64,000 bases of DNA from Lysobacter enzymogenes (GTDB taxonomy: Bacteria > Pseudomonadota > Gammaproteobacteria > Xanthomonadales > Xanthomonadaceae): assembly GCF_017355525.1 (NCBI RefSeq), contig NZ_CP067395.1, forward strand, positions 2,852,001 through 2,916,000, in the 5' to 3' direction. Each line of letters begins with the position of its first letter. The first letter of the stretch is position 1. The notes beneath the pieces are model-generated. The model did not search any database, was not told the DNA's origin, and saw only the letters and a list, made by a program, of their open reading frames with translations. The position numbers and the translations under genes are program-made. Below are positions 24,890 through 27,492 of this stretch, in pieces.

Positions 24890-26365
24890 TTACAGCCCGC
24901 GCGCGGCTTCGGCGACAGCGCGGAACAACGCGCGCCCCTTGTTCATCGTCTCCTCCCACTCCTTCTGCGGATCGGAGTCGTAGACGATGCCGGCGCCGGC
25001 CTGCACGTGCAGGCGGCCGTCCTGGATCACCGCGGTGCGGATCGCGATCGCGGTGTCGGCGTCGCCGTGCCAGCCGATGTAGCCGACCGCGCCGGAATAG
25101 ACGTTGCGCTTGACCGGCTCGAATTCGCGGATCACTTCCAGCGCGCGGATCTTCGGCGCGCCGCTGACGGTGCCGGCCGGGAACGTGGCGCGCAACACAT
25201 CGGCGTAGCTCATGCCGTCCTTGAGCCGGCCGGTGACCTCGCTGACGATGTGCATGACGTGGCTGTAGCGTTCGATCACGAACTGCTCGCCGACCTCGAC
25301 CGTGCCGGCCTTGGACACGCGGCCGACGTCGTTGCGGCCGAGGTCGATCAGCATCAGGTGCTCGGCGCGCTCCTTCGGATCGGCCAGCAGCTCGGCTTCC
25401 AGCGCCTGGTCTTCGTCGACGGTCTTGCCGCGCGGACGGGTGCCGGCGATCGGGCGCACGGTGACTTCCTCGCCCTGCAACCGCACCAGGATTTCCGGCG
25501 ACGAGCCGACCACCTGGGTGCCGCCGACATCGAGGAAATACATGTACGGCGACGGGTTCAACGCGCGCAGCGCGCGGTACACGTCGACCGGCCGCGCCTT
25601 GAACGGCACGCTGAGCCGCTGCGACAGCACCACCTGGAAGATGTCGCCGGCGCGGATCAGCTCCTTGGATTTCTCGACCGCGTCGATGAAGCCTTCGCGG
25701 GTGAAACCGGAGACGAAGTCGCCTTCGTCCAGGCCGACCGAATGCAGGTTTTCCGGATAGCCCGGGCCGCTGATGCGCAGGCGGTGCACCAGTTGGTCGA
25801 GGCGGCGGTTGGCGCGCGCGTAGGCCTGCGGCTGGCTCGGGTCGGCGTGGACGATCAGGTACAGCCGGCCCTTGAGGTTGTCGAACACCGCCACTTCCTC
25901 GCTCTCCATGAGCAGGATGTCGGGCGTGCCGAGTTCGTCGGGCTTGGCGCTGCCGGCCAGGCGCTGTTCGATGTACTGGATGCACTCGAAGCCGAACCAG
26001 CCGACCAGGCCGCCGGCGAAACCCGGCAGGCCGTCGATCTTGGGCACTTTGTGCGCGCTGCGCAGGCGCTCGACTTCGGCGAAGGGATCCTCGACTTCGC
26101 GGTGTTCGACCAGTTCGCCGTTCTCGGTGACGAACAAGCTGTGGCCGGCGAAGGCGTACACGCGCTGGGCCGGCAGGCCGATGATCGAGTAGCGGGCGAA
26201 ACGCTCGCCGCCCTCGACCGATTCGAACAGGTAGGTGTGCGGGCCGTCGGCGAGCTTGAGATAGACCGAGAGCGGAGTATCGAGGTCGGACAGGACCTCG
26301 CGCACGACCGGGATGCGGGTGTAGCCGTCAGCGGCCTGCTGCTGGAAAAGTTCGTGCGAAATCAC
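24890..26365 (-). CDS. trpE: Anthranilate synthase component I
   Basis: A 491-residue chorismate-using enzyme. The tryptophan feedback site motif is LFESVEGGERFARYSI near the N-terminus. The catalytic half has ALNPSPYMYFLD, IAGTRPRGKTVDEDQALE and MLIDLGRNDVGRVS, ending with the chorismate-fold AGAGIVYDSDPQKEWEE. Start is GTG at 26365 with GAAGGAA upstream; that SD is part of a leader arm (see leader entry). trpE is 4.3 kb from trpG, so the operon is split, with a two-component system and stress genes between. Confidence 0.97.
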   Translation of the reverse strand: MISHELFQQQAADGYTRIPVVREVLSDLDTPLSVYLKLADGPHTYLFESVEGGERFARYSIIGLPAQRVYAFAGHSLFVTENGELVEHREVEDPFAEVERLRSAHKVPKIDGLPGFAGGLVGWFGFECIQYIEQRLAGSAKPDELGTPDILLMESEEVAVFDNLKGRLYLIVHADPSQPQAYARANRRLDQLVHRLRISGPGYPENLHSVGLDEGDFVSGFTREGFIDAVEKSKELIRAGDIFQVVLSQRLSVPFKARPVDVYRALRALNPSPYMYFLDVGGTQVVGSSPEILVRLQGEEVTVRPIAGTRPRGKTVDEDQALEAELLADPKERAEHLMLIDLGRNDVGRVSKAGTVEVGEQFVIERYSHVMHIVSEVTGRLKDGMSYADVLRATFPAGTVSGAPKIRALEVIREFEPVKRNVYSGAVGYIGWHGDADTAIAIRTAVIQDGRLHVQAGAGIVYDSDPQKEWEETMNKGRALFRAVAEAARGL

Positions 26366-26471
26366 GCGGGCATTCCTTCATGGACGAGTGGGCAGGAGCG
26401 GTGGTGACCGACGGCCACCATCGCCAACCCACGTCGGCGCAGAAGGAATGCGGGTTCGCCCAGGTTTGCAT
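26328..26471 (-). CDS. Candidate trp leader peptide (47 aa) upstream of trpE
   Basis: A 47-codon ORF starting MQTWANPHSFCADVG, with Trp-Arg-Trp-Trp at residues 16-19 (26415-26426) plus one more Trp at residue 4. Its ATG lies 7 bp after a -10-like TAGAGT, and there is no SD, so a leaderless start is plausible. It overlaps the trpE start by about 38 bp. The length, Trp motif and upstream box match the trpG-side leader. Confidence 0.65.
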   Translation of the reverse strand: MQTWANPHSFCADVGWRWWPSVTTAPAHSSMKECPRDFARTFPAAGR

Positions 26472-26485
26472 GGCCGCCACTCTAA
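26366..26485 (-). promoter_or_regulatory. trpE tryptophan leader with SD-sequestering arms
   Basis: In transcription order: -10-like TTAGAGT (26479-26485); arm GCATTCCTTC (26442-26451), 15 bp before the first of the clustered Trp codons; WRWW codons; hairpin GGTGGCC-GTC-GGTCACC (26403-26419) starting within the Trp codons; arm GAAGGAATGC (26370-26379), which holds the trpE SD and is the exact 10-bp complement of the first arm. A ribosome stalled on Trp codons would cover the first arm and expose the SD. No T-run is present, so control of translation rather than transcription is favoured. Confidence 0.7.
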
Positions 26486-26511
26486 CCGGTTTCGCGCGCC
26501 GTGCGCGACCG

Positions 26512-27492
26512 TCAGGACGCCGGGCCGTGCGCGGCGGCGCCGGGCCGAGCGGGCGGCGCGGCCGGGTCGCGCAGCAGCGGGCAGCCGGGCGGCAGGTGCA
26601 TGCGCACCCGCGCCGGTACGCAGTCGATGCGGAAGTGGTGCGACTGCACCGGTTCGCCGTCGAGATTGAGGTTCAGCGGCTGCGGCGATTCGATCTCGAC
26701 CCAGCGCAGCTGCGCGCGCGCGGCGACGCGTTCCAGCGCCGCGTGCTGGCCCTGGGTCACCAGGGTGCCGACGGTGGCGCCGACCGCGCCGGACAGCTCG
26801 GGCACGACGGTCACGTCGAGCAGGCCGTCGTCGATCAGCGCGTCCGGACACAGCCCCTGGCCGCCGCCGGCCTGGCGTCCGTTGCCGATGCCCAGGGCGA
26901 TGAAATCGCCCTCCCATTCGAAGCCTTCGCCGTGCACGCGCGCGCGGATCGGCTCGATCTTGCCGAGCTTGGCGATGCCGGTCAGCAGGTACGCCAGCCC
27001 GCCGAGCATCTTCTTCAGGCCCGCATCGGTCTCCAGCGTCACCTGGGTGCCGAAGCCGCCGCTGGCCAGGTTCGCCGCCCAGTGCAGGCCGTCGGGCGCC
27101 TGCAGGCGCAGCAGGTCGATCGGCTGCGGCGGCTGGCGGTGGATCAGGTCCAGCGCCTGGACCGGATCGACCGGAATCGTCGCGGCGGTGGCGAAGTCGT
27201 TGGCGGTGCCCAGCGGCAACAGGCCGAGGCTCGGCAGCGCGGCGGCGTCTTCGTCGCGGTGGGCGAGCGTGGTCGCCACTTCGCTGAGCGTGCCGTCGCC
27301 GCCGCCGGCGATCACCGTGTCGACGCCGTCGGCGATGGCCTCGGCTACGTAGCGTTCGGCGTCGCCGCTTTCCCAGGTCACGCGCACGTCGAGGGCGACG
27401 CCGCGGTCGCGCAGCGCGGCGACGGCTTCGCGCACCTCGTCGTTGCCGGCGGACTTGCCGTTGAGGATCAGCCGCCAGCGGGGTGGGGTCAT
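26512..27492 (-). CDS. yegS: Lipid kinase YegS-like
   Basis: A 326-residue diacylglycerol kinase-family protein that phosphorylates a membrane lipid (phosphatidylglycerol in E. coli YegS). The nucleotide-binding motif is [15 protein letters not shown], followed by [19 protein letters not shown], and the second domain holds [27 protein letters not shown]. The C-terminal 20 residues are a Pro/Ala tail. It lies directly upstream of the trpE leader in the same direction but 41 bp before the leader ORF, so read-through is possible. Confidence 0.9.

Follow-up and report, generated by a model that had tools for sequence, protein, structure and literature searches.

The trpE gene of Lysobacter enzymogenes, in the 64,000-nucleotide stretch of DNA analysed here (termed the window), is preceded by a short open reading frame with clustered tryptophan codons, which runs across the trpE ribosome-binding site and start codon and closes inside trpE. 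This Trp leader is a real and widespread element of the family Xanthomonadaceae, and its distribution includes Lysobacter, Xanthomonas, Stenotrophomonas and their kin. It is likely to be a ribosome-mediated translational attenuator. An earlier note on this DNA, made from the sequence alone, had pointed to a leader at this place; the overlap with its fixed stop in trpE and the codon pair CGA-UGG are new points.

The trpE gene (anthranilate synthase component I) is located at positions 24890..26365 on the minus strand, has a GTG start at 26365 and displays the Pfam domains PF04715 (Anth_synt_I_N) and PF00425 (Chorismate_bind). A gene for a YegS-like lipid kinase lies upstream, with its end at 26512, and the leader open reading frame sits between the two genes. 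The leader (MQTWANPHSFCADVGWRWWPSVTTAPAHSSMKECPRDFARTFPAAGR; 26328..26471, minus strand) has 47 codons, begins with an ATG at 26471 and has no Shine-Dalgarno (SD) sequence in front of it. Its length and its codons TGG CGA TGG TGG are as the earlier note had them, but it does not simply precede trpE, as the note had it: it overlaps trpE by 38 nt, out of frame, across the trpE SD and start codon. The leader stop codon, a TGA at 26328..26330 (minus strand), is at nt positions 36–38 of trpE and is made up from trpE codon 12 (GCT) and codon 13 (GAC).

The Trp core TGG CGA TGG TGG is found at 26415..26426 (minus strand) and encompasses leader codons 16–19. The first arm, GCATTCCTTC (26442..26451, minus strand), ends 15 nt before the first core Trp codon. 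It is the exact complement of the SD arm GAAGGAATGC (26370..26379, minus strand), which is the trpE ribosome-binding site. Both arms and the spacing agree exactly with the earlier note. The leader has an extra Trp codon close to its start, codon 4 (26462–26460, minus strand); all 19 distinct leaders from the genus of the window (L001–L020) have a Trp there, as does one of the 94 other leaders.

Across the genome the TGGCGNTGGTGG string is no commoner than background, with 69 matches (40 forward, 29 reverse) vs 65 for the reversed control pattern. As the string by itself is not significant, its position and conservation carry the weight. A motif-only search with TGGTGGCGATGG in 143 class-level genomes was uninformative about trpE. 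An Rfam cmscan of the window shows one tRNA only at the gathering score, elsewhere than the leader, and the leader region searched against Rfam with E-values up to 10 gives one chance match on the opposite strand (16 bits vs a gathering score of 70).

For comparison, 250 trpE upstream regions were gathered: 50 from relatives, 80 from the best named records of a longer list, and 120 more from the same family, the last being part of 151 genomes with a match. Removal of nine duplicates left 241 distinct loci. A leader was called as a peptide with two Trp codons within three codons, and the DNA motif was not used. Seven open reading frames were relabelled by hand after inspection of their sequences. 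Four (L138, L178, L214 and L216) are long leaders whose Trp codons are fewer or spaced out, and three are short leaders with one Trp each (L022, L055 and L059). A separate group was made of fifteen Trp open reading frames that have no promoter-like box, most of them from other families. The 241 loci thus fall into 117 long-leader, 9 short-leader and 100 leaderless loci, the last of which may still include some degenerate short leaders, together with the 15 set apart.

Leaders with Trp codons are widespread among relatives, conservation being a point on which the earlier note had staked its reading. A Trp-pair leader precedes trpE in 113 of the 241 distinct loci (117 with the four labelled by hand), the Trp pair being the search criterion, so that its presence in called leaders is no independent result. 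Within the family, 52 genus codes were sampled, and long leaders occur in 30 of them. Among the 113, the core is WRWW in 76, WW in 19 and WRW in 18, and the start codon is ATG in 72 and GTG in 41. In the N-terminal part of the leader, changes by codon position are 0.36, 0.34 and 0.30. There is no excess at the third position, and thus no sign of coding constraint beyond the Trp, start and stop codons.

The place where the leader closes is fixed. Of the 117 long-leader loci, 110 have a stop codon at trpE nt positions 36–38. None of the 9 short-leader loci and none of the 15 set apart has one there, and it is seen in 3 of the 100 leaderless loci. Within the family alone the counts for long-leader, short-leader, leaderless and set-apart loci are 88/94, 0/4, 1/48 and 0/1, respectively. 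The leader itself terminates there in 109 of 117 (105 of 113, plus the four labelled by hand). In L028 the stop is present at this position, but the leader closes earlier. The seven long leaders without the fixed stop end at −7, −1, +2, +11 (three of them) and +20 from the alignment anchor. By eye, several of the TrpE frames seem to begin upstream of the anchor, and so these seven may overlap trpE as well.

The stop is built from a trpE codon 12 that ends in T and a codon 13 that starts with GA or AA. GCT is the codon 12 of 105 of the 117 long-leader loci, vs 2 of 100 leaderless loci, and makes up 2.1% of 815 Ala codons at codons 15–120 of the same genes. In five further long-leader loci, where the Ala has changed, codon 12 is ACT, TCT or AGT. 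A third-base T is found at codon 12 in 94% of the 117 loci; the next-highest of 117 trpE codons shows 51%, and the median is 3.4%. In four genus codes with both kinds of loci, the stop is present in 11 of 11 long-leader loci vs 0 of 8 others. A TrpE tree (116 residues, poorly resolved) gives three supported independent pairs, and the stop follows the leader in 2.9 of the three on average, which is not significant.

Other arrangements of a Trp open reading frame are seen as well. In the short-leader genomes, e.g. Lysobacter xinjiangensis and L. lacus, it closes soon after the Trp codons and the fixed stop is absent from trpE (L051, L058, L156, L163, L196, L022, L055 and L059). Seven Marinobacter loci (L107, L109, L114, L116, L121, L124 and L126) have conserved RWWRWRTG leaders in the classical layout, ending 49–124 nt before trpE. 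In two loci from other families of the class (L277 and L285), Trp-pair leaders run into trpE and end at +44 and +32 from the anchor; the overlap may thus have arisen more than once or predate the family.

A promoter-like sequence stands directly before the leader. In the window this is the −10-like box TAGAGT (26479..26484, minus strand), a predicted promoter element 7 nt 5′ of the leader ATG. Of the 113 leaders, 106 have a TANANT hexamer 6–7 nt ahead of their start codon (59 at 6 nt, 47 at 7 nt), vs a mean of 0.16 and a maximum of 2 in base shuffles, a result that is partly selected for because leader starts with a −10-like hexamer 5–10 nt upstream were preferred in calling. The position is nevertheless sharp, with nearly all boxes at 6 or 7 nt though 5–10 nt was allowed. 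No clear −35 consensus is seen upstream of the leaders. An SD-like motif precedes the leader start in 0 of 113 leaders, and precedes the anchored trpE start in 87 of 105 leaders with the standard stop. The usual spacing between a −10 box and the transcription start is 6–8 nt, and transcription would thus begin at the leader start codon. The leader mRNA is probably leaderless, with the transcript starting at or next to the leader ATG. The predicted promoter sits just 5′ of the leader start and not downstream of the WRWW codons, the position that would have spoken against the switch of the earlier note.

The leader RNA of the window has a predicted folding energy of −63.5 kcal/mol (z = −3.8; none of 200 shuffles reaches this energy). 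The free RNA is predicted to form a single long hairpin: the SD is paired with the first arm, and an inner hairpin has the Trp codons as its 5′ arm, much as the earlier note had drawn it. Over the 113 leaders, the mean predicted pairing of the Trp core in free RNA is 0.88. The trpE SD has a predicted unpaired probability of 0.10 in 96 leaders vs 0.38 in codon-shuffled sequences, with 94 of the 96 lower (Wilcoxon p = 4e-17); for the 19 leaderless loci tested it is 0.37, and for the six short-leader loci 0.35. These tests leave out 17 of the 113 leaders, 3 of the 9 short-leader loci and 81 of the 100 leaderless loci, nearly all because no SD is recognised near the anchor. The main partner of the SD is 5′ of the Trp codons in 93 of the 96 leaders. 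Thus the SD is predicted to be hidden by the long leaders. In the six short-leader loci the SD is predicted to be hidden no better than in leaderless loci, and short leaders may therefore regulate differently.

The arms that pair with the SD vary by lineage. The Lysobacter enzymogenes window has GCATTCCTTC, Pseudoxanthomonas has GCTTTCC, and many Xanthomonas and Stenotrophomonas leaders pair the SD via CTTTCTTCCG or TCCTTC; many of the latter also have a second helix, GACGAC/GTCGTC, at the start codon. A consensus fold of the whole alignment (47 sequences) gives six pairs, none with changes on both sides. The single-column approach failed because the arms use different registers. When arms and SD sequences are swapped, the own partner is clearly favoured in the Xanthomonas/Stenotrophomonas and Pseudoxanthomonas groups, but not in the Lysobacter group, and codon shuffles of the arm give p < 0.05 in just 5 of 19 representatives. 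The covariation evidence for arm pairing is therefore mixed. Of the checks proposed in the earlier note, folding gave a result beyond chance and pair-by-pair covariation a weak or mixed one. Its proposal of a translational switch is partly supported: control of SD access by the Trp codons is the best-supported reading, but the exact 10-bp arms are specific to the lineage.

A simple ribosome-scan model was used to follow the SD as a ribosome moves along the leader. The footprint was taken as −15 to +14 around the P site, with the RNA on either side free to pair. In the free RNA the mean SD openness is 0.10. Placing the first core Trp codon in the A site raises the modelled mean to 0.39, which falls to 0.29 and 0.24 two and three codons further on and to 0.13 five codons on. 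The Trp codons therefore sit at the boundary between open and closed states. For the window's own sequence, this footprint, the larger of those assumed, gives an openness of 0.38 at the first core Trp codon and 0.00 at later scored positions; a smaller footprint gives 0.05 at the first core Trp codon. Because the footprint changes the outcome, the opening step is model-dependent for this sequence. The suggestion that a starved ribosome frees the SD is thus in line with the modelled mean over the leaders, but for the window the model shows it clearly only at the first core Trp codon and when the larger footprint is assumed.

All 113 leaders have CGA between their Trp codons (26423–26421, minus strand, in the window), and CGA is 1.1% of the 1125 Arg codons in the same trpE genes. 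To look beyond the family, a further 68 trpE loci of the class, taken as Gammaproteobacteria (L263–L330), were scanned with a neutral rule, i.e. a Trp pair at −95 to −40. Here CGA directly precedes a Trp codon in 16 of 17 leaders (the exception, L276, has CGC), vs 1 of 8 control open reading frames. For 18 leaders picked by eye, CGA is 4.7% of the Arg codons in trpE. Marinobacter and Microbulbifer leaders also carry CGA before Trp.

Candidate causes of the conservation of CGA are a slow codon pair, an internal AUG, or RNA pairing. The A of CGA is predicted to be paired, with a U as partner, in 99 of 113 leaders and is unpaired in 14; RNA pairing may explain CGA in part. As the codon is invariant, there is no compensated variant of the pair. 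The internal AUG was considered as the start of a second open reading frame (ORF B), which begins with the ATG formed by CGA-TGG and, in 93 of 117 loci, closes with a TGA that overlaps the start of trpE, a count in which one row, L216, is placed at the wrong site. ORF B is open to the trpE start in 87 of 105 leaders, vs 89.3 expected from codon shuffles. The base after the trpE start is A in 99 of 117 long-leader loci and also in 65 of 99 leaderless loci. ORF B was therefore rejected as a selected reading frame, and stop-start coupling by an internal frame of this kind shows no openness beyond chance. In L304, from another family of the class, the ATG in CGATGG is apparently in frame with trpE (by eye), such that the leader could be read as an N-terminal extension of TrpE. 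As to the slow codon pair, Curran is said to have described inefficient inosine-adenosine decoding in 1995. An inosine-adenosine pair in the P site is the leading candidate, and would slow the following Trp codon.

The proposed process is as follows. The transcript would begin at the leader ATG or beside it, and the leader would be translated as a leaderless open reading frame. When charged tRNA-Trp is ample, the ribosome would clear the WRWW codons, and the first arm would re-emerge behind it and pair with the trpE SD. The same ribosome would then sweep over the trpE SD and start codon and end 38 nt inside trpE, such that trpE initiation would be low. When Trp is short, the ribosome would halt with a Trp codon in the A site, thus breaking the Trp-core hairpin and keeping the first arm off the SD, and a second ribosome could start trpE. 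Rho-dependent polarity may come as a secondary effect. The overlap most likely serves to occlude the trpE start, and to avoid stop-start coupling, when Trp is plentiful.

A more specific form of this proposal is offered tentatively, and we hold it to be somewhat less likely than not. One leaderless Trp-sensing ribosome would be both sensor and occluder, and selection would keep the frame free of stops as far as the trpE ribosome-binding site and beyond it, up to a fixed trpE codon where it closes. Trp sufficiency would then refold the SD hairpin and also drive ribosomes across the start site. The CGA codon would tune the sensitivity to Trp: through an inefficient inosine-adenosine pair in the P site, decoding of the Trp codon that follows would perhaps depend unusually strongly on charged tRNA-Trp.

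Leaders with Trp codons are best known from transcription attenuators, and this familiarity favours a different reading, in which the leader controls premature termination, whether intrinsic or by Rho, in the manner of E. coli trpL or tnaC. Nine of 113 leaders do show at least five T in 8 nt downstream of the Trp core. T-runs are nevertheless rare, since these nine are all, and no intrinsic terminator-like site is present at positions 26000–26800 of the window, which upholds the earlier observation that a T-run is absent. Further, the SD is inside the predicted hairpin and is better sequestered than in controls, and a frame open through the trpE start is not needed for intrinsic termination. 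A study on toiL-topAI indicates that translational closure can feed Rho termination (PMC12121999). On balance, transcription attenuation as the primary mode is unlikely.

Two other explanations bear on the stop inside trpE. One is positive translational coupling, in which ribosomes that end at trpE nt positions 36–38 slide back and restart at the trpE start, the leader feeding ribosomes to the gene. The phage MS2 coat and lysis genes are a precedent for backward re-initiation over such distances, and a stop held 35 nt past the start in 110 of 117 loci is what such coupling could use. Under such coupling, however, scarce Trp would bring less TrpE, which is the opposite of what a biosynthetic gene requires. 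It also gives no role to the Trp codons or to the predicted SD-sequestering fold, and seven long leaders without the fixed stop close elsewhere. We regard it as improbable. Still less credence is given to the other, in which the fixed stop is a mere by-product of the TrpE N-terminal sequence and shared ancestry. Ala followed by Asp, Asn or Glu at codons 12–13 is indeed common in the family, and the TrpE tree yields just three supported independent pairs. Against this are the rare GCT at codon 12 and its replacement by other codons ending in T where Ala has changed, the near absence of GCT there in leaderless loci, the standing of its third-base T as an outlier, and the segregation of the stop with long leaders within the four mixed genera. 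Translational attenuation by the Trp leader is the reading that is retained.

A homologue of the Trp repressor (PF01371) is present in the window's genome (G000:C1:171315-171563), as in 38 of the 41 genomes searched, and two layers of Trp control are thus possible.

If the translational reading is correct, a Trp attenuator that acts on translation without a terminator would be present in a large family of Proteobacteria, with plant pathogens and Stenotrophomonas among its members. Since there is no terminator, terminator searches and Rfam would miss attenuators of this kind. Leaderless initiation, codon-specific stalling and gene overlap would be joined in one switch, and an odd rare codon inside trpE would be explained. 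The CGA-UGG pair offers a directly testable idea on how the sensitivity of leader codons is tuned.

In E. coli, trpL is a short leader with Trp codons upstream of trpE; a stalling ribosome is the sensor and the Trp codons are in the 5′ arm of a hairpin. The leader described here likewise has clustered Trp codons before trpE in the 5′ arm of a predicted hairpin, and ribosome stalling is the proposed sensor. Unlike trpL, it has its trpE SD inside the predicted fold and is probably leaderless at its start. It also lacks two defining features of the E. coli type of trp attenuator: no U-run terminator was found, and the leader is not closed before trpE. No report of a trpE leader in Xanthomonadaceae was found among the titles and abstract beginnings of the open-licence literature. 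Older comparative predictions may hold one, and those reportedly made by Vitreschak in 2004 could include such a leader.

Among other systems, E. coli toiL-topAI has SD-hiding logic in common with the trpE leader, and Rho termination there follows translational repression (PMC12121999). toiL differs in that it senses ribosome-targeting antibiotics and not an amino acid, and its upstream open reading frame has its own SD (PMC12121999). The actinobacterial LEU element and cys leader peptides have regulatory codons and no obvious terminator, and the base stem of LEU pairs with the leuA SD box (PMC1262725). There the run of Leu codons itself pairs with the SD, a pseudoknot is predicted, and the authors cite experiments in which mutations of the Leu codons did not fit attenuation (PMC1262725). 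The likeness to LEU is a loose one, i.e. a leader peptide, no terminator and SD-hiding logic. In the trpE leader a separate arm 5′ of the Trp codons, and not the codon run, is predicted to pair with the SD.

Closer parallels come from mycobacterial leaderless Cys open reading frames. Canestrari et al. in 2020 reportedly described SD sequestration that is relieved by a stalled ribosome in these loci. No mycobacterial Cys locus is known to us in which the leader stop keeps to a single codon of the downstream gene throughout a family. The amino acid, the phylum and the gene also differ, and no homology is implied. The speed of elongation on polycysteine leaderless short open reading frames decides the translation of the downstream genes (PMC9031893). 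The trpE leader is similarly a short open reading frame, probably leaderless, with clustered codons of the pathway's own amino acid, and a predicted structure hides the ribosome-binding site of the downstream gene. On the best reading of this analogy, the mycobacterial Cys open reading frames, and not E. coli trpL, would be the closest working likeness of the Xanthomonadaceae trpE leader.
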